This document shows, piece by piece, positions 8,383-16,712 of a stretch of DNA of 64,000 bases. The stretch spans positions 973,295 through 1,037,294 of the forward strand of contig NZ_FNHL01000001.1 of NCBI RefSeq assembly GCF_900103715.1, in the 5' to 3' direction. A program made the translations under genes and the position numbers. Within the stretch, counting starts at the first letter, position 1; the number at the start of each line of letters is the position of its first letter. The notes beneath the pieces are model-generated. The model had not been told where the DNA came from. It ran no database searches and worked only from the letters and a program-made list of their open reading frames with translations. The DNA comes from Halogranum gelatinilyticum. Lineage in GTDB: Archaea; Halobacteriota; Halobacteria; Halobacteriales; Haloferacaceae.

Positions 8383-9438
8383 CTACTCGGCCGGCGTGTC
8401 GGGCGTGGCACCGTCCGGGCGGTACACCCGGCCACCGCCCGCGGCTGGCGACTCCTCGCCCGTGCCGTGGAGTGCGAGGAACGCCCAGAGCGCGAGCGGC
8501 GAGACCGCCGCCGCGAGGAGACCGCCGCCGACGACGTGGAGACCGGTCACCTGCGGCAATGCCAGTCCGGCGGCTGCGTCGTCGCCGACGAGCAACGCCC
8601 CCTTCATCCCCATCGCAACGTGGGGTTCGCAGGCGTACTTGACGACACCCCGGTCGGTAGCGACGTACTCGTAGACGTGACCGGCGTCACCGGTCAGCTC
8701 GCTGGCGAAGGAGCCGTCGGCCGCGGCGACGTTGTGGACGCCGCCCGCACCGGTCCAGACGAAGCGGACGGTGGTTCCGGGGTCGACCTGCACGGCTGCG
8801 GGTTCGAAGCCGAACGCACCGCCGTTGCCCGACGCACCGACTTCGACGGTGACGGTCGACTCGCCGCGGCGGTCGACGGTGCCTGCGAAGTTGTCGACGG
8901 TGTCGAACCAGTCGCCGTAGACGGCGGCCGGGTCGGCCGCGCCGTCGCCCGCGCTGGCACTCACCTCGACGCCGGGCACGTCGCCGACGACGACGACACC
9001 TTTCATCCCCATCGGCGCGTGCGGTTCACAGGCGTACTTCACGACGCCCTCGGTCTCGGCGACGTACTCGAACGTCTCGCCAGCCTCGCTCAGCAGGTCG
9101 CTGGCGAAGCTGCCGTCGTCGGCGACGACGTTGTGCATCCCGCCCTGGCCGGTCCAGACGAAGCGGACGGTCGTCCCGGGGTCGACCTGCACCGCCGCCG
9201 GACCGAAACCGAACGCCCCACCGTTGGCGTTCGTGCCGACTTCGACCAGCGCGACCGCTTTCCCGCGGGCGTCGACGACGCCGTCGTAGTTGTCGACGTT
9301 GTCCAGCCAGCCGTCGAAGGTCTGGGTTGGGGACTCTTGGGCCGCGACCGATCCGACAGCGGGTGTCAGCGAGGTCGCTCCGAGCGCGAGCCCGGCGGCC
9401 GCGCCCGTCCGGAGGAAGTGTCTGCGGCTGACACTCAT
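8383..9438 (-). CDS. Halocyanin-type protein with two blue-copper domains and a C-terminal membrane anchor
   Basis: A 351-aa exported electron-transfer protein. The N-terminus has a twin-arginine signal (SRRHFLRT, then a hydrophobic stretch ending near AVGSVAAQ). Two homologous halocyanin domains follow, at about residues 38-155 and 170-288. Each has a complete type 1 copper set: His102, Cys137, His140, Met145 and His235, Cys270, His273, Met278 (CEPHxxMGMKG). A transmembrane helix at about 298-323 anchors it with a short cytoplasmic tail. It starts inside the stop codon of the multicopper oxidase gene (4-nt overlap), so the two are probably redox partners outside the membrane. Confidence 0.92.
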   Translation of the reverse strand: MSVSRRHFLRTGAAAGLALGATSLTPAVGSVAAQESPTQTFDGWLDNVDNYDGVVDARGKAVALVEVGTNANGGAFGFGPAAVQVDPGTTVRFVWTGQGGMHNVVADDGSFASDLLSEAGETFEYVAETEGVVKYACEPHAPMGMKGVVVVGDVPGVEVSASAGDGAADPAAVYGDWFDTVDNFAGTVDRRGESTVTVEVGASGNGGAFGFEPAAVQVDPGTTVRFVWTGAGGVHNVAAADGSFASELTGDAGHVYEYVATDRGVVKYACEPHVAMGMKGALLVGDDAAAGLALPQVTGLHVVGGGLLAAAVSPLALWAFLALHGTGEESPAAGGGRVYRPDGATPDTPAE

Positions 9439-10586
9439 AGCTCGTACCCCGCGTAGTCCATGACCTTCCGGAAGACGTCGGAGTCCATCGCCTCGGTGTA
9501 GACCGTCGCGGTCAGCATCCCGCCGGGGTAGGAGTTGCCGTTGCGGACGTGGTCGACCTTGTGGCAGTGGATTGGGTAGATACCCGGGTCGGCGTCGGCG
9601 ACGAACTCGATGGTGTAGCGCTCGGCCGGGGCGACGTTGACGACGTCCTGCAGATACTGGAGCGGCTCCGGCATCGGCGAGCCGTCCTTCTCGACCACCT
9701 TGAACCGGTGGTTGTGCGTGTGCATCGGATGGCTCATGAAGCCCGCGTTGACGAGATGGATGCGGACGGTGTCACCCGAGTCGACGATGACCGGCGACCC
9801 CATCTCGGGGTTGAGCGTGTACGGTGCGGACCGGCCGTTGATGGTGAAGACGTCGCCCATGCGGTCGGGCAGCGAGTACTTGACGTTCTCGCCGCCGTAC
9901 TGCCGCGAGAGCCGCGAGTCCCACTCCTTGACCGTCATGAAGTACTCCTTGTCGGCCTCCTCGTAGCCCGCGGGGTCGACCCGGAGGATGCCGTACATCC
10001 CCATGTCCATGTGGAAGGGGGTGTTGAAGTGGCAGTGATAGAGGTGGGTCCCGGCGACGTTCGCGGGGATGGTGTAGGTGTGCGTCTCGCCCGGCATGAC
10101 GGTGATGCCCGTCGTGGTCGGGACGCCGTCGTCCATCCACGACTTGCGCACGCCGTGGAAGTGCAGCGTGTGTGGATGCACGTTGTCGGTGTTGTCGAGG
10201 GTGATCTTCAGCTCCGTCCCCTCGGTACAGCGGAGGACCGGACCGGGGACGGAGGGCGTCCCGTCGTTCGCCTGGAACGCCCAGACGACGGGGAGGGTGA
10301 CAGGCCCGTTCATCGCCTGTCCGGGGTGGGCCTCGTGGCGCGCCGTGACGGTCCGGAGCGTCACCTCGCCGCCGAGTTCGTCGAGGTCGACGACCTCGGG
10401 CTGGCCGGTCAGCGGGAGGTCGGCCGTCGACGCCGACAGCGAGTCGGCACCACCGGCGGCGGGGACCTGCGCAGTGGGAGCATCCATACAGCCAGCGACC
10501 GCGACGGCACCGGTCGCGCCGGTGGCCTTGAGGAAGTCGCGTCGTGAGATTCCGGTTCCGGGGGCACCGATTCTGTCACTGTTCAT
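9435..10586 (-). CDS. Two-domain multicopper oxidase (laccase/NirK-like), Tat-exported lipoprotein
   Basis: A 383-aa two-cupredoxin-domain oxidase. A Tat motif (SRRDFLKA, residues 14-21) precedes a lipobox-like VAGC with Cys33. All four multicopper-oxidase signatures are present: HFHG at 142-145, YHCH at 183-186 (with His192 and Met197 downstream), HPMHTHNH at 286-293, and IHCHKVDH at 339-346 (with Met357). Type 1 copper ligand sets therefore appear in both domains, plus trinuclear or type 2 ligands between subunits. Classical haloarchaeal NirK lacks the HCH pattern in domain 1, so I prefer a two-domain MCO, but nitrite reductase activity is not excluded. Probable electron partner: the coupled halocyanin. 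Confidence 0.85.
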   Translation of the reverse strand: MNSDRIGAPGTGISRRDFLKATGATGAVAVAGCMDAPTAQVPAAGGADSLSASTADLPLTGQPEVVDLDELGGEVTLRTVTARHEAHPGQAMNGPVTLPVVWAFQANDGTPSVPGPVLRCTEGTELKITLDNTDNVHPHTLHFHGVRKSWMDDGVPTTTGITVMPGETHTYTIPANVAGTHLYHCHFNTPFHMDMGMYGILRVDPAGYEEADKEYFMTVKEWDSRLSRQYGGENVKYSLPDRMGDVFTINGRSAPYTLNPEMGSPVIVDSGDTVRIHLVNAGFMSHPMHTHNHRFKVVEKDGSPMPEPLQYLQDVVNVAPAERYTIEFVADADPGIYPIHCHKVDHVRNGNSYPGGMLTATVYTEAMDSDVFRKVMDYAGYEL

Positions 10587-12110: not shown

Positions 12111-12175
12111 GTCTGGAGGTGCCACAGGTGGCCGCAAAAGCGTGTCGATGAAATGTGTGCACGTACGTGGCGTTT

Positions 12176-12454
12176 CTACCCGAACAACACCGAGATAGAA
12201 CCGGCGACGATACACCAACACGTATAGGCCTCGCGTCTCGGTCCGTCTCCGAGTCGGACTGTGACCGGTGTGGTCGCCGAGACCGCGAGGACCGCGGAGA
12301 CGACGTTGATCGCGACGAACAGGAGGAGGAGATAGAGGAGACCGACGATCGCGTTTCGTCGCGGTGCGTGCGGGACTACCCCCGGCAGCACGAAGACGAC
12401 CCGTTCACACCGTCGGACGCTCGCCGTGAGCCACGTCGGAACGGCCCGCATCAT
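12176..12454 (-). CDS. Small two-helix membrane protein of the SipW/TasA-type locus
   Basis: A 92-aa protein that I do not recognise. It has a basic N-terminal half, then two hydrophobic segments: residues about 37-60 (Ile/Leu/Val-rich) and 79-91 at the extreme C-terminus. Its ATG overlaps the stop of the preceding surface-protein gene by 4 nt, the same coupling used elsewhere in this operon, which is the main evidence that it is real. It is the last gene of the cluster. It might help export or assembly, but nothing in the sequence shows this. Confidence 0.55.
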   Translation of the reverse strand: MMRAVPTWLTASVRRCERVVFVLPGVVPHAPRRNAIVGLLYLLLLFVAINVVSAVLAVSATTPVTVRLGDGPRREAYTCWCIVAGSISVLFG

Positions 12455-13011
12455 CGGTCCAGCGGGTCGACACCGACGGCGGTCCCAGCCGTCGGCGCGC
12501 CGAGCAACGTCGTCCGTACGGCCGCTGCGGTGTCGTTCTTCGGTGCGTTTCCTGCGGCTCCGGACGAGTCATCCGAGACAGTCTCCGTCCCGGCCGTGCC
12601 GTCCGCGCCTCCCTCGGGCGTCGACGGCTCACCCTCGCTGTTGCCTGCTGCGGTGAGTCCACTCCCCCGGCTGTGCTCGCCGTCGTCGGACCCCCCGTCG
12701 GTCCCGCCGTCGGAACTCTCTTCACCGTCTTCCGACGGTCCGCCTCCCGATTCTTGGCCTCCGGCACTCGGCAGCCCGGACGCTGTGTCCGTGTTTCCGG
12801 CATTCGGCAATCCCGCGTTCCCAGCATTCGGCGACCCGACGTTCCCGGCACCCGCCGCGTCGAAGTTCGCCGCCGCCTGGAACGTCGCGCTGGCCGTCTC
12901 CTCGTCGGTGTAGCTGGCGTACGTGGTGTAGCCGCCGACCGCACTGGCCGCGAACACGACGACGACGGCGACGAGGACGCCGAGTCGGGGCAACGGGTCG
13001 GGGTCGGTCAT
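12451..13011 (-). CDS. SipW-type exported surface protein, Gly/Asn/Ser-rich
   Basis: A 186-aa protein. A hydrophobic segment at residues 11-28 is followed by YASYTDEETASATFQA, which resembles the cleavage region of SipW-dependent (TasA/camelysin-type) precursors. The mature part is low complexity, with Asn-Ala-Gly/Ser-Pro repeats (around bases 12760-12850) and then Ser/Asp/Glu/Gly-rich sequence. It looks like an extended, disordered surface chain or linker rather than a globular domain. It starts 4 nt inside the stop of the larger signal peptidase, so peptidase and substrate are translationally coupled. Confidence 0.75.
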   Translation of the reverse strand: MTDPDPLPRLGVLVAVVVVFAASAVGGYTTYASYTDEETASATFQAAANFDAAGAGNVGSPNAGNAGLPNAGNTDTASGLPSAGGQESGGGPSEDGEESSDGGTDGGSDDGEHSRGSGLTAAGNSEGEPSTPEGGADGTAGTETVSDDSSGAAGNAPKNDTAAAVRTTLLGAPTAGTAVGVDPLDR

Positions 13012-14132
13012 CCCGCCTCACCCCGGTCGGCCGGCGGCGAGGCGTCGTCCGGGGGCGTGCCGTCCCAGACGAAGACGAGCGCGCCGTCCCGCACGAAGAG
13101 CCGCTCGCCCGCCTCGTCACGGCGTATCGGCCGCCCGCACTCGGCGGCGACGTCGACCAGCGAGACCGCCGAGTCGACGACGACCCGCCGCGGACCGCCG
13201 TCGGGAAGCGACGCGTCCGTGACCGGGACGAGCGACGTGTCGCGTGGTGAGGTCTCGACGTCCCGCGCCATCGGGTCGTCCTCCTCGACCTCTTCGACCT
13301 CCTCTGCCATCCGTGAGAGGCCGCCACCGAGCAGGAGGAACCCACCGGACGCGACGGCGACGGCGACGGACCACGGCGTTCGGGTCGTGTAGGCCATCAC
13401 CGCGCTGTACACCGTGAGCGCGACCAACGGGACGAGCGCGACACGGAGATCGGGCAGTTCGAGTTCGAACTCGTCGCTGTCGTTCGGGTCCTCCGGGTCG
13501 TTCGAGTCGCTTGGGTCGGCCGCCCCAGTGTCGGTCGTCGGCTGGGCTTCGTCAGTCCGACCGTCGGTTGCTTCGGCCGACGACGACGTGACGACTTTCC
13601 AGACCTCGCTCACGACGAGCAGGGCGATGGGCGCGCCGACGAGCGCGGCGAAGCCGAGTCGCGTCCCGGCGAACTGGACGACGTAGCCGACGAGCGGGAT
13701 GACGAGTAGCACCTCGCCGACGACGTTCTCGGGGGCGACTGTCGGGCCGTCGCGGGCCTCGTTGGCGTCACCCTTGGTCACGAACGCCCGGCCGGTCTCC
13801 GTCTCGCGTATCTCGACGATGCGATGCGTGGTCGGTTTCGTCTCGCCGTCTCGACGGAACGTGATGACGTCACCGCGTTCGAGCGTCGAGGCACCGACGT
13901 CGTCGACGACGACGACGTCGCCTGGGCTGATGGATGGCTCCATGCTACCCGAGAGGACGGTGTAGCTCTGGTCGGCACCGACGGTCTGTGGGACCGCCTG
14001 GACGACGAAGGGTGCGAGAACGGCGAGGAGCAAGAGGACGCCGAGTGCGTGGAGTACGGTTCGAGAACTCGCCCACCCACGGCTGGCGTCGCCTTCGGCG
14101 GCCGTCTGTTCGGCTCGTCTGGGTCGTGTCAT
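13008..14132 (-). CDS. Type I signal peptidase (archaeal S26B type) with C-terminal membrane and soluble extension
   Basis: A 374-aa protein. A signal-anchor helix at about residues 27-48 leads into an S26B catalytic domain with the nucleophile Ser63 in SGSMEP, His103 in TTHRIVEI, and Asp122/Asp128 in TKGDANEARD. The Ser-His-Asp arrangement is ER/archaeal, not the bacterial Ser-Lys dyad. After the catalytic core come two or three more hydrophobic segments and an acidic soluble tail of about 100 residues, much longer than the housekeeping enzyme. It lies between two putative substrates, so it probably processes the locus's own precursors. Confidence 0.88.
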   Translation of the reverse strand: MTRPRRAEQTAAEGDASRGWASSRTVLHALGVLLLLAVLAPFVVQAVPQTVGADQSYTVLSGSMEPSISPGDVVVVDDVGASTLERGDVITFRRDGETKPTTHRIVEIRETETGRAFVTKGDANEARDGPTVAPENVVGEVLLVIPLVGYVVQFAGTRLGFAALVGAPIALLVVSEVWKVVTSSSAEATDGRTDEAQPTTDTGAADPSDSNDPEDPNDSDEFELELPDLRVALVPLVALTVYSAVMAYTTRTPWSVAVAVASGGFLLLGGGLSRMAEEVEEVEEDDPMARDVETSPRDTSLVPVTDASLPDGGPRRVVVDSAVSLVDVAAECGRPIRRDEAGERLFVRDGALVFVWDGTPPDDASPPADRGEAG

Positions 14133-14189
14133 GGAAATAGTCGTATCGTAGTCGTGGTCTTCCGTCGGTTCAGGGCCACCGTGGCCGAC

Positions 14190-14687
14190 TTATTCGACTG
14201 CTGAGAGGAGATACTGGCCTCGCTCGAGTGCCAGCGTCGCCGCGGGCACGACGAACAGGAAGACGAGCGCGCTCCCGATGTCGGTAGCCAACACGGGATA
14301 GCCGACCCAGGGGATAGTCGCCGTGACTCGGCCGACGACCCGCGAAGCATCGACCGGTTCGTTGTCCGGCGACCGGTTTGCGTCGCCCTTGACGACGAAG
14401 GCGAACCCAGCGTCGTTTCGCTGGATACCGACGACGCGGTGAGTCGTCGTCGGACCAACGTTGCCCTCGCCACGGAAGGTGATGACGTCACCCACCTCGA
14501 CGGTCCGGGGGGAGACCGCCTCGACGAGGACGAGGCTCCCTCGTTTGATCTCCGGTTCCATACTGCCGGATGCGACCGCGTACCCAGCGTCTGCACCGAC
14601 CAATCCGGGCTGTACGACGACGAGAAACGGACTCGAGAGTAGCCAGAGGGCGAGCACGACACCGTGTAGCTGCCGTCGTGCGCCCAT
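14190..14687 (-). CDS. Type I signal peptidase (archaeal S26B type), compact
   Basis: A 165-aa enzyme. The N-terminal anchor helix is at about residues 9-27. Catalytic Ser42 is in ASGSMEP, His83 in TTTHRVVG, and Asp102/Asp108 in VKGDANRSPD. A second hydrophobic segment follows near the C-terminus (about 132-155). It begins 10 nt after the stop of the SipW-type surface protein gene and precedes a second, larger signal peptidase. Two paralogous peptidases in one small operon suggest different substrates or cleavage sites. Confidence 0.88.
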   Translation of the reverse strand: MGARRQLHGVVLALWLLSSPFLVVVQPGLVGADAGYAVASGSMEPEIKRGSLVLVEAVSPRTVEVGDVITFRGEGNVGPTTTHRVVGIQRNDAGFAFVVKGDANRSPDNEPVDASRVVGRVTATIPWVGYPVLATDIGSALVFLFVVPAATLALERGQYLLSAVE

Positions 14688-14696
14688 CGTGCTCCG

Positions 14697-15716
14697 TCAG
14701 TCGCCGCCGTTGTCAGCGTCTCCCTCGGTCGGCTCACCCTGGGCTCTGTAGCCAGGCGTCGAGATGTACGGCCGCGCGGGGCTCTCGTTGTGGCGGACCT
14801 GCTGGAAGTCGAAGCCGAAGTAGATGTCGATGCTGTCGGTCTGCGCCTCGTTGCCGACGTTGAACGGCAGCGACCAGTCGTAACCGAACCGAATCGTTCC
14901 CTCCGGCTGGAGCGGGCTGAAGCCCTGCTCGTTGTTCGTATCTCCGTTCTGTTCGCCGTTGAGGAGGATACAGCCAGCGTAGCGCCGGTTGACCGGGGCG
15001 GGCGTCGTGTACGTCTCACCGTCGTCGTTGAAGCCGACAGTCCCCTGGTCGAGCTGTGAGAAGACTGCCCCACTGAGGGGTCGAGGGACGAGACTCCCCG
15101 TCGCGTTGTCCCAGTACGCGGGCGAGGTCACGCCCTGACTGGTCGGGTTGAAGCTCCCCTGGAAGCCGCCGTCGAAGAAGCTCGAGTTCTTGTTCGAGTC
15201 GTAGAAAGGAAGCACGTAGAGGTTGTCGGCGAGTTCGCCGTTGCCGTACTGGACCGTGACGGTGTCGTTGTTGTAGGTATTCGCGCTCACCTCGGCTTCC
15301 TTCATCGCTCCGTTGTCCACCTCGTCTTCCGGATCCTCGATGGAGTTGTCGTCGTTGTTGTCGAAGTCGAGACACGAGAACACCCACGCCGGATTGGTCT
15401 CGACCTCGATTTCGAAGACGATGGAGCCGTAGTCGCCAGGCTTGACATCATCCAAACTGTACGCGAGATGCTGAGTGCCGTTGTCCTCGCCGGTTTGAAC
15501 CTCGATCTCGTCTCCCTGGCTGACTTCTTCACCGTTGTACGACGCGTACCAGCCCACGTGACCGTCGAGCTCGCCTGCAGTGAACGTCGTCGTCGCCTCT
15601 TCCGTGTCACTGAAGGCCGCCCACGTTCCGAAGCCCGCGCCTGCCGATGCGATACCGATCGTGCCGAGCCCGGCGAGCATATTGCGCCGGGACAGTTTGA
15701 GTTTCTTCTTGGACAT
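14697..15716 (-). CDS. SipW-dependent TasA/camelysin-like surface or fibre-forming protein
   Basis: A 339-aa exported protein. Residues 1-34 form a signal region with a basic N-terminus (KKKLKLSRRN) and a Gly/Ala-rich hydrophobic core. It is followed by WAAFSDTEEATTTFTAG, the hallmark of SipW-cleaved TasA/CalY-type precursors. The mature protein is Asn/Asp/Gly-rich. It has a KPGDYGSIVFEIEV strand typical of the TasA jelly-roll and two cysteines (in FSCLDF and AGCILL). In Bacillus and in archaeal bundling pili such proteins polymerise into extracellular fibres. It is the first gene of the minus-strand locus, followed at once by two signal peptidases. The fibre role is inferred. Confidence 0.8.
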   Translation of the reverse strand: MSKKKLKLSRRNMLAGLGTIGIASAGAGFGTWAAFSDTEEATTTFTAGELDGHVGWYASYNGEEVSQGDEIEVQTGEDNGTQHLAYSLDDVKPGDYGSIVFEIEVETNPAWVFSCLDFDNNDDNSIEDPEDEVDNGAMKEAEVSANTYNNDTVTVQYGNGELADNLYVLPFYDSNKNSSFFDGGFQGSFNPTSQGVTSPAYWDNATGSLVPRPLSGAVFSQLDQGTVGFNDDGETYTTPAPVNRRYAGCILLNGEQNGDTNNEQGFSPLQPEGTIRFGYDWSLPFNVGNEAQTDSIDIYFGFDFQQVRHNESPARPYISTPGYRAQGEPTEGDADNGGD

Positions 15717-15875
15717 TGGTCTTCACCCATCCGAGTGCCACCCGTCCTGAGTGGGTCGGACGTGGTTTCACCGACGAGCGATGCCGCATTAGTTAACAGC
15801 CGAGAGACATGAAATCGGTCTCGTTCGTCGTCGTTCTCGCCGCCGTTCGGATAGCATGGGAGCCGTTATTTCGGG

Positions 15876-15892
15876 CTAAATCCGCGGTTTAG
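15876..15892. promoter_or_regulatory. Imperfect palindrome in the divergent promoter region of the surface locus
   Basis: CTAAA-(7 nt)-TTTAG has perfect 5-bp arms. It sits between the divergently transcribed surface-protein operon and the membrane-bound winged-helix gene, so it is a plausible site for that regulator. No experimental consensus is known to me. Confidence 0.3.
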
Positions 15893-16032
15893 AAGCCTAG
15901 AGCAGTGATTATTCGGGCGTGTGTCACTCGTTGACGACTGTTATGGCTGGCCGAACGTCGCTAAAGTAGACATTAGCTATGCATCGGTATCGCAGACCTG
16001 TACGTGCCGACAGTCACGGGGGTGACGCGGCG

Positions 16033-16590
16033 GTGAACGATTCGATGAACCAACTGACCACGCGCAAATCGGACATCACGGAGGGGGAGATTCACGAACT
16101 ACTGCGGAACTCGCGGCGGCGACGAGTGCTCAAACAGTTACAGGAGCGCGTCGGCGTCGTGACCGTCCGCGCGCTCGCGGAGACCATCGCCGAGTTGGAG
16201 ACGGGCGAATCGCCGCCGCCGCGGCGTATCCGCGACAGCGTCTACAACTCGCTGCATCAGACGCATCTGCCGAAACTCGACGCGTACGGCGTCGTCGACT
16301 ACGACAAGAACAGAAAGACGGTCGCACTGCGAAGGGAGGTCAGACAGGTCGACCTCTACATGGAGGTGGTGACGAAGTACGGCATCACGTGGGCGGAGTA
16401 CTACCAACGGCTGCTGTTGCTCGCACTGCTCGTCATCTTGGCCGCGCAATTCGACGTGGTCGCGGTCGCCGCGCTTCCGACAGCCGTCTGGGCGAGCGTC
16501 TTCCTCGTCGTCCTGGCCCTGTCGAGCGCGGCACAGCTGTGGTCCCGTCGGTGGTTCTATCTCCAACAGCTCGTCGGCGACCACCGGTAA
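16033..16590 (+). CDS. Membrane-anchored winged-helix regulator (DUF7344-like)
   Basis: A 185-aa protein with an N-terminal winged-helix domain (residues about 15-105: the ITEGEIHELLRNSRRRRVL helix, then LPKLDAYGVVDYDKNRKTV as recognition wing). Two transmembrane helices follow at about 126-142 and 146-168. I prefer the GTG at 16033 because GGGGGTGA (16018-16025) stands 7 nt before it as a strong Shine-Dalgarno sequence. An in-frame ATG at 15979 is the alternative. The gene is divergent from the SipW/TasA-type operon and is the obvious candidate regulator. A membrane tether suggests it senses an envelope signal. Confidence 0.8.
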   Translation: MNDSMNQLTTRKSDITEGEIHELLRNSRRRRVLKQLQERVGVVTVRALAETIAELETGESPPPRRIRDSVYNSLHQTHLPKLDAYGVVDYDKNRKTVALRREVRQVDLYMEVVTKYGITWAEYYQRLLLLALLVILAAQFDVVAVAALPTAVWASVFLVVLALSSAAQLWSRRWFYLQQLVGDHR

Positions 16591-16712
16591 TACACGTCTG
16601 TGTGTAGTTAGTCGGGTGATGGCCGCGAGATGTGGCGAGAATACTCGCGAATTTGTATATCTCTCGTCTCGCAACCGCAACTGTTTTTCTCTCGGACTCG
16701 GGTGGTTCGTGT

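Follow-up and report, generated by a model that had tools for sequence, protein, structure and literature searches.

The closest described systems are the surface fibres built from TasA and its relatives. In Bacillus subtilis, TasA carries the cleavage motif TWA-AFND and is cut by SipW, a dedicated signal peptidase of the endoplasmic reticulum (ER) type (PMC10269814); its donor-strand contacts are F29 and F39 (PMC9674648). ABPx of Pyrodictium is an ABP-like donor-strand fibre (PMC11952670). Besides these TasA/ABP fibres, the NCBI names "SipW-dependent-type signal peptide-containing protein" and "TasA family protein" are already in use for haloarchaea. TasA-relative filaments have so far been solved in Bacillus and hyperthermophilic archaea; our literature search found no paper combining SipW, signal peptidase and haloarchaea, and none on filament-forming TasA relatives in haloarchaea. 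Here we describe a six-gene locus in a 64,000-nucleotide stretch of the Halogranum gelatinilyticum genome (contig NZ_FNHL01000001.1), which as a whole is referred to as the window. On balance, we read the locus as a cassette, self-contained and acquired horizontally, for a single surface filament of the TasA/ABP type, SipW-cut, assembled by donor-strand exchange, controlled by a DUF7344 protein and probably exported by the twin-arginine translocation (Tat) pathway. The gene content, domains, predicted fold, conservation and insertion of the locus are observed and are given with the following features (protein lengths in amino acids, aa).

12151-16668, no strand: inserted cassette of exactly six genes (segment missing from the purB-purNH junction of relatives)
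12176-12454, minus strand: small membrane protein of the LPGxxPxAP[RK]RN family, 92 aa (open reading frame (ORF) list)
12451-13011, minus strand: low-complexity SipW-type protein, 186 aa (ORF list)
13008-14132, minus strand: long S26B signal peptidase, 374 aa (ORF list)
14190-14687, minus strand: short S26B signal peptidase, 165 aa (ORF list)
14697-15716, minus strand: TasA-like SipW-class precursor, 339 aa, putative major subunit (ORF list)
15618-15716, minus strand: signal peptide of the precursor, residues 1-33 (sequence)
15717-15978, no strand: divergent promoter region between the precursor and DUF7344 genes (the 262 nt separating both starts)
15979-16590, plus strand: DUF7344 winged-helix protein, 203 aa, putative regulator (ORF list, PF24035)

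The five minus-strand ORFs and the divergent plus-strand ORF all lie where the initial annotation of this DNA, made from the sequence alone, had placed them. Its count of three 4-nt overlaps has to be lowered to two (12451-12454 and 13008-13011); the other two operon junctions are gaps of 57 nt (14133-14189) and 9 nt (14688-14696).

The 339-aa protein belongs to the SipW-class precursors and has a predicted TasA-like fold. It passes the SipW-dependent precursor model TIGR04088 (29.8 bits, cut-off 19), and its signal combines the twin-arginine motif SRRNML with the predicted SipW-type site GTWA-AFSDTEE, of which RR and A33 are almost or entirely invariant among aligned homologues. The claim of a SipW-type site is borne out, the predicted TWA-AF cleavage motif being identical to that of B. 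subtilis TasA. Two further models match partially, extending past the signal peptide to residues 71-72: the TasA equivalog NF046066 (E 1.9e-4, 20.9 bits, residues 18-71 only) and, below threshold, camelysin PF12389 (21.2 bits, cut-off 22.5, residues 23-72). The latter scores 25.6 bits in a Halococcus homologue, and its name would suggest a camelysin-type metallopeptidase. This identity is very improbable, as the match is limited to the N-terminal residues mentioned and the top-ranking structure is that of a fibre protein with a structural role; it was rejected because the protein has no HExxH motif.

An AlphaFold2 model of the 339-aa protein, built from 35 homologues, has a beta-sandwich core predicted with confidence (predicted TM-score (pTM) 0.65; predicted local distance difference test (pLDDT) 77-91 in the core blocks). 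When it was compared with 350,542 PDB chains by Foldseek, the TasA fibre 8aur ranked first (probability 0.97, E 4.8e-3; next match 0.30). A second model, of a relative from Haloarchaeobius iranensis (pTM 0.74), again placed 8aur first (probability 0.99, E 2.4e-3; next match 0.51), and none of the other matches listed for either model exceeded a probability of 0.51. The alignment for the second model was composed of window proteins and proteins of related loci found by search only; that for the first also took in proteins from loci drawn directly from genomes. A TasA-like fold, which the initial annotation had named as one of the points on which its reading could fail, is therefore what both models predict. 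Since the E-values lie slightly above 1e-3, the support for the fold is good and not overwhelming. The mature N-terminus is modelled with low confidence (pLDDT below 50 for residues 11-47) and contains no strand ahead of residue 51, as expected for an unpaired donor strand. When the cleavage sites are aligned, F29 and F39 of TasA coincide with F35 and F45, positions that are hydrophobic in 100% and 97% of the aligned homologues, respectively. The profile of the family is also collinear with the archaeal pilus subunit AbpX (9sj2), without significance (E 0.17). By homology, the N-terminal strand freed by cleavage, AFSDTEEATTTF, would enter the beta-sandwich of the next subunit by donor-strand exchange to give a surface fibre.

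The export signal differs between archaeal and bacterial members of the class: [ST]RRxxL was present in 183 of 191 archaeal precursors and in none of the eight bacterial ones tested (duplicates included). The 339-aa protein, unlike the 186-aa protein, contains no 19-mer over the hydropathy threshold. In several genera, tatA genes lie within a few kb of SipW clusters (loci L058, L062, L070, L071, L093, L095, L160-L162, L168 and L210), and likewise on a Haloarcula plasmid. The twin-arginine motif, the weak hydrophobicity and the nearby tatA genes suggest that haloarchaeal precursors are Tat exported. Curated Tat models scored under their cut-offs in relatives of the precursor, so Tat export is not proven. 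With its twin-arginine signal of weak hydrophobicity, the 339-aa subunit would be exported by Tat already folded, and the 186-aa protein would take the general secretory (Sec) route. A similar RR signal with a GTGAF site occurs in PDB 9p0a chain C, deposited as "Pilin", which has no match in the TasA-like core and may be another kind of haloarchaeal-type pilin that shares this export signal.

In eight of nine long paralogues tested, an inserted von Willebrand factor A (vWA) domain separates the conserved N-terminal portion of the fold from the conserved C-terminal one, as would be expected for adhesive subunits; the 339-aa protein of the window has no vWA domain. The SipW/TasA class assigned initially stands. 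Unnoticed then were the twin-arginine signals and vWA paralogues, as were the small LPG-APRRN family, the inserted nature of the locus and the related clusters of this genome, all described below or above. As vWA domains are typical of adhesins, they also bear on another explanation, in which the 339-aa protein has the TasA/camelysin fold and stays monomeric or membrane-associated at the surface, as an adhesin, a binding protein or a processing substrate, without forming a polymer. The fold by itself is no proof of polymerisation, and a 130-aa middle region of the precursor is variable; yet the nearest solved structure is the fibre form of TasA, and the conserved hydrophobic mature N-terminal positions match the TasA donor-strand contacts. 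This explanation is considered unlikely, though it is the most serious of the alternatives to a filament cassette.

The boundaries of the cassette were obtained from relatives. In seven Haloferacaceae, both congeners included, purNH directly follows or precedes purB as its neighbour. The homology shared with congener G379 breaks off at 12150, next to purB, and is picked up again at 16669, next to purNH, with 84 nt in between in that genome, which has no SipW-class match whatsoever; homology to genome G399 resumes on the purNH side at 16641, with 56 nt in place of the insert. The right boundary may lie as early as 16591. The insert of about 4.5 kb consists of exactly six genes and is absent in relatives, which makes it a discrete cassette and gives the description of the system as self-contained, previously based on gene order, a stronger footing. 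No recognisable integrase or transposase was found within the insert, and the viral contigs searched yielded no confirmed relative of the cassette.

The locus is not a chance arrangement, as homologues and neighbours recur throughout the class Halobacteria. Homologues of the 339-aa protein were found in 162 of 391 Halobacteria species sampled and SipW-class precursor signals in 166 of 382 (about 43%). All 38 long haloarchaeal SipW loci contain more than one precursor, 37 a DUF7344 gene and 35 an S26B gene; in most, DUF7344 is divergent from the first precursor and the peptidase comes last. Among 30 other loci, nearly all from candidate phyla radiation (CPR) bacteria plus two from nanohaloarchaea, precursor and peptidase occur together in 28 and DUF7344 in none. 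These counts indicate that precursor and peptidase are the shared unit and that DUF7344 is a haloarchaeal addition. Conservation of the neighbours, proposed at the outset as a check, accordingly holds for the module of DUF7344, precursors and S26B, and fails for the exact five-gene order. In the same genome, precursors, S26B and DUF7344 occur together in two more large clusters, at 62-78 kb of contig C2 and 167-181 kb of contig C3, with a lone precursor at 880 kb of C2. As the first half of the cassette pairs a precursor with a short peptidase and the second half is like the end of an ordinary cluster, the locus looks like a mosaic.

Two small clusters from elsewhere were observed. The scaffold GL982571 of Candidatus Nanosalina J07AB43 (locus L077, 6899-9264) encodes a precursor with an SRR motif, a short S26B and a second precursor; the small genes around it look plasmid- or virus-like, and the cluster is suggestive of mis-binning or of a transfer linking haloarchaea with nanohaloarchaea. 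A minimal version of the cassette is present next to orc1/cdc6 on the Halobellus plasmid NZ_CP134947.1 (161358-174341).

Both peptidases pass the archaeal signal peptidase I model TIGR02228 (cut-off 51.85), and the annotation of two different S26B enzymes with intact catalytic sets was correct. The short one (100.7 bits, E 7e-29) has a complete Ser42/His83/Asp102 set, and its gene starts 9 nt after the precursor gene. The long one (110.7 bits, E 5.9e-32) has a complete Ser63/His103/Asp122 set, two extra helices and a C-terminal, presumably cytoplasmic, tail similar to the final ~50 residues of DUF5305 (PF17231; E 0.11 for the window protein, 9.4e-08 and 1.2e-06 for homologues). Paired S26B genes are unusual in a single SipW cluster, most clusters having one peptidase and 2-6 precursors. 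The layout of precursor and short peptidase also occurs in Halorubrum coriense, genome G141, the Nanosalina scaffold and the Halobellus DFY28 plasmid. The short peptidase evolves fast, and its orthology with those of H. coriense, G141, Nanosalina and Salinigranum was neither shown nor rejected (tree support 37). From the motif and the gene pairing, the short S26B would cut the 339-aa subunit after GTWA and the long S26B the partner encoded by the overlapping 186-aa gene. This genome encodes five TIGR02228 enzymes that exceed the cut-off and has 11 SipW-class matches spread over several clusters, which would allow the peptidases to serve precursors genome-wide and the precursor to be cut by any of the five enzymes, in which case the locus would not be self-contained. 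We regard this as improbable, because nearly every cluster has its own S26B, as counted above, and the cassette was inserted as a unit.

The 186-aa protein is of Gly/Ala/Ser/Asp/Thr-rich low complexity, with a Sec-like signal, a hydrophobic helix at residues 10-28 and the site TTYASYTDEE; it barely passes TIGR04088 (19.3 bits), and its gene overlaps that of the long peptidase by 4 nt. Comparable pairs of a peptidase and a low-complexity SipW-type protein, overlapping or abutting, occur in four other loci (L019, L020, L073 and L146). The 92-aa protein, described earlier as two-helix, has one clear membrane helix (residues 40-58), and in nearly all aligned relatives the chain ends at or shortly past it. 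Its family is defined by the motif LPGxxPxAP[RK]RN and one helix; a profile search placed it at 31 sites in 27 of 194 Halobacteria genomes, and a Pfam search with the family found no match. Many of these LPG-APRRN genes neighbour a DUF7344 gene or close a SipW cluster at its distal end. A second LPG-APRRN protein of the same genome (contig C2, 891711-891863; locus L174, 7709-7867) has no peptidase or precursor match within the 12 kb read. More speculatively, the disordered 186-aa protein and the LPG-APRRN protein might be membrane-located factors for starting, anchoring or assembly.

The divergent 203-aa protein had been described as a winged-helix protein with two C-terminal membrane helices, and both parts were recovered: DUF7344 (PF24035) matches with E 1.6e-28 and 99.3 bits (gathering cut-off 27.8), and two C-terminal hydrophobic helices are present. 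In the same genome, four of 13 DUF7344 genes fall within three SipW clusters covering about 1% of the genome (rough expectation 0.1). No paper naming DUF7344 was found in the literature search. To judge by this regulatory layout only, the membrane-anchored protein probably controls the operon; envelope sensing, as first proposed for it, stays conjectural. A TA-rich element, GTTAACTA (also given as CTGTTAACTAATGC), lies at about 15797, ~80 nt upstream of the precursor start, and similar elements occur 34-143 nt upstream of first precursors elsewhere (for example in L078, L087 and L160: TCGTAACTATCCCC, GATTAGCTATGGGG, GGTAATACCCCCC). They are possible promoter or operator candidates; as the motifs come in three lineage-linked versions, they are not claimed as operators.

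Several points weigh against a filament cassette. The 339-aa protein stays far below the cut-off of the TasA equivalog model (450 bits), and sequence searches of the PDB with it gave no significant TasA match. The Foldseek E-values quoted above and the TM-scores (0.31-0.43) are modest, AbpA is absent from the best 50 Foldseek matches, and the model is uncertain over much of its length (residues 123-270). No tatA gene was found in the 64-kb window, and the short peptidase is too divergent for phylogeny to fix its partner. TapA was rejected as the identity of the 186-aa protein (TIGR04087 12.7 bits against a cut-off of 80, signal region only), which leaves the earlier label "minor chain" as a positional one. 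From the genes we infer the cleavage, the polymerisation, the route of export, the control and what the two small proteins do.

A more general proposal, tentative and clearly less probable than the cassette itself, is that haloarchaea possess a class of Tat-exported donor-strand filaments. Subunits folded in the salty cytoplasm would polymerise only once the donor strand has been freed by a SipW peptidase specific to their cluster, long inserted-vWA paralogues would be the adhesive subunits, membrane-anchored DUF7344 would be the switch, and compact cassettes would move among haloarchaea and reach nanohaloarchaea. If Tat dependence is true, donor-strand assembly would start from already folded exported subunits, and self-complementation before export becomes testable. 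A compact cassette of six genes whose insertion site is cleanly empty in close relatives lends itself ideally to deletion or transfer, and DUF7344 and LPG-APRRN, both uncharacterised, gain a likely working context. Elsewhere in the window, at 8386-10586, a halocyanin-domain protein adjoins a multicopper oxidase with a Tat signal; the two may form a copper redox pair.

The core of the cassette is of a known type. Most likely new is the archaeal layout with probable Tat export, a membrane-bound regulator and a small partner, for which no describing paper was found. The cassette shares with tapA-sipW-tasA of B. subtilis the TWA-AF motif, a dedicated ER-type (S26B) peptidase, a predicted beta-sandwich and an extra SipW-type partner. 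It differs in its twin-arginine-type signal, its two peptidases, a DUF7344 membrane protein in place of SinR, a low-complexity partner unlike TapA and the additional LPG-APRRN protein. With AbpA of Pyrobaculum and ABPx of Pyrodictium, which are described as archaeal TasA-like donor-strand fibres (PMC9674648, PMC11952670), it is linked by the weak collinear AbpX profile match; unlike the host of the cassette, their sources are hyperthermophilic Thermoproteota. DUF7344 and DUF5305, represented by a domain match in the regulator and a weak tail likeness in the long peptidase, are families that lack an assigned function. The Halobellus sp. DFY28 plasmid NZ_CP134947 has a similar arrangement, in which a DUF7344-like gene is divergent from a precursor, a 170-aa peptidase and a TasA-family protein; it differs in having one peptidase and in a folded TasA-family second protein that replaces the low-complexity one.

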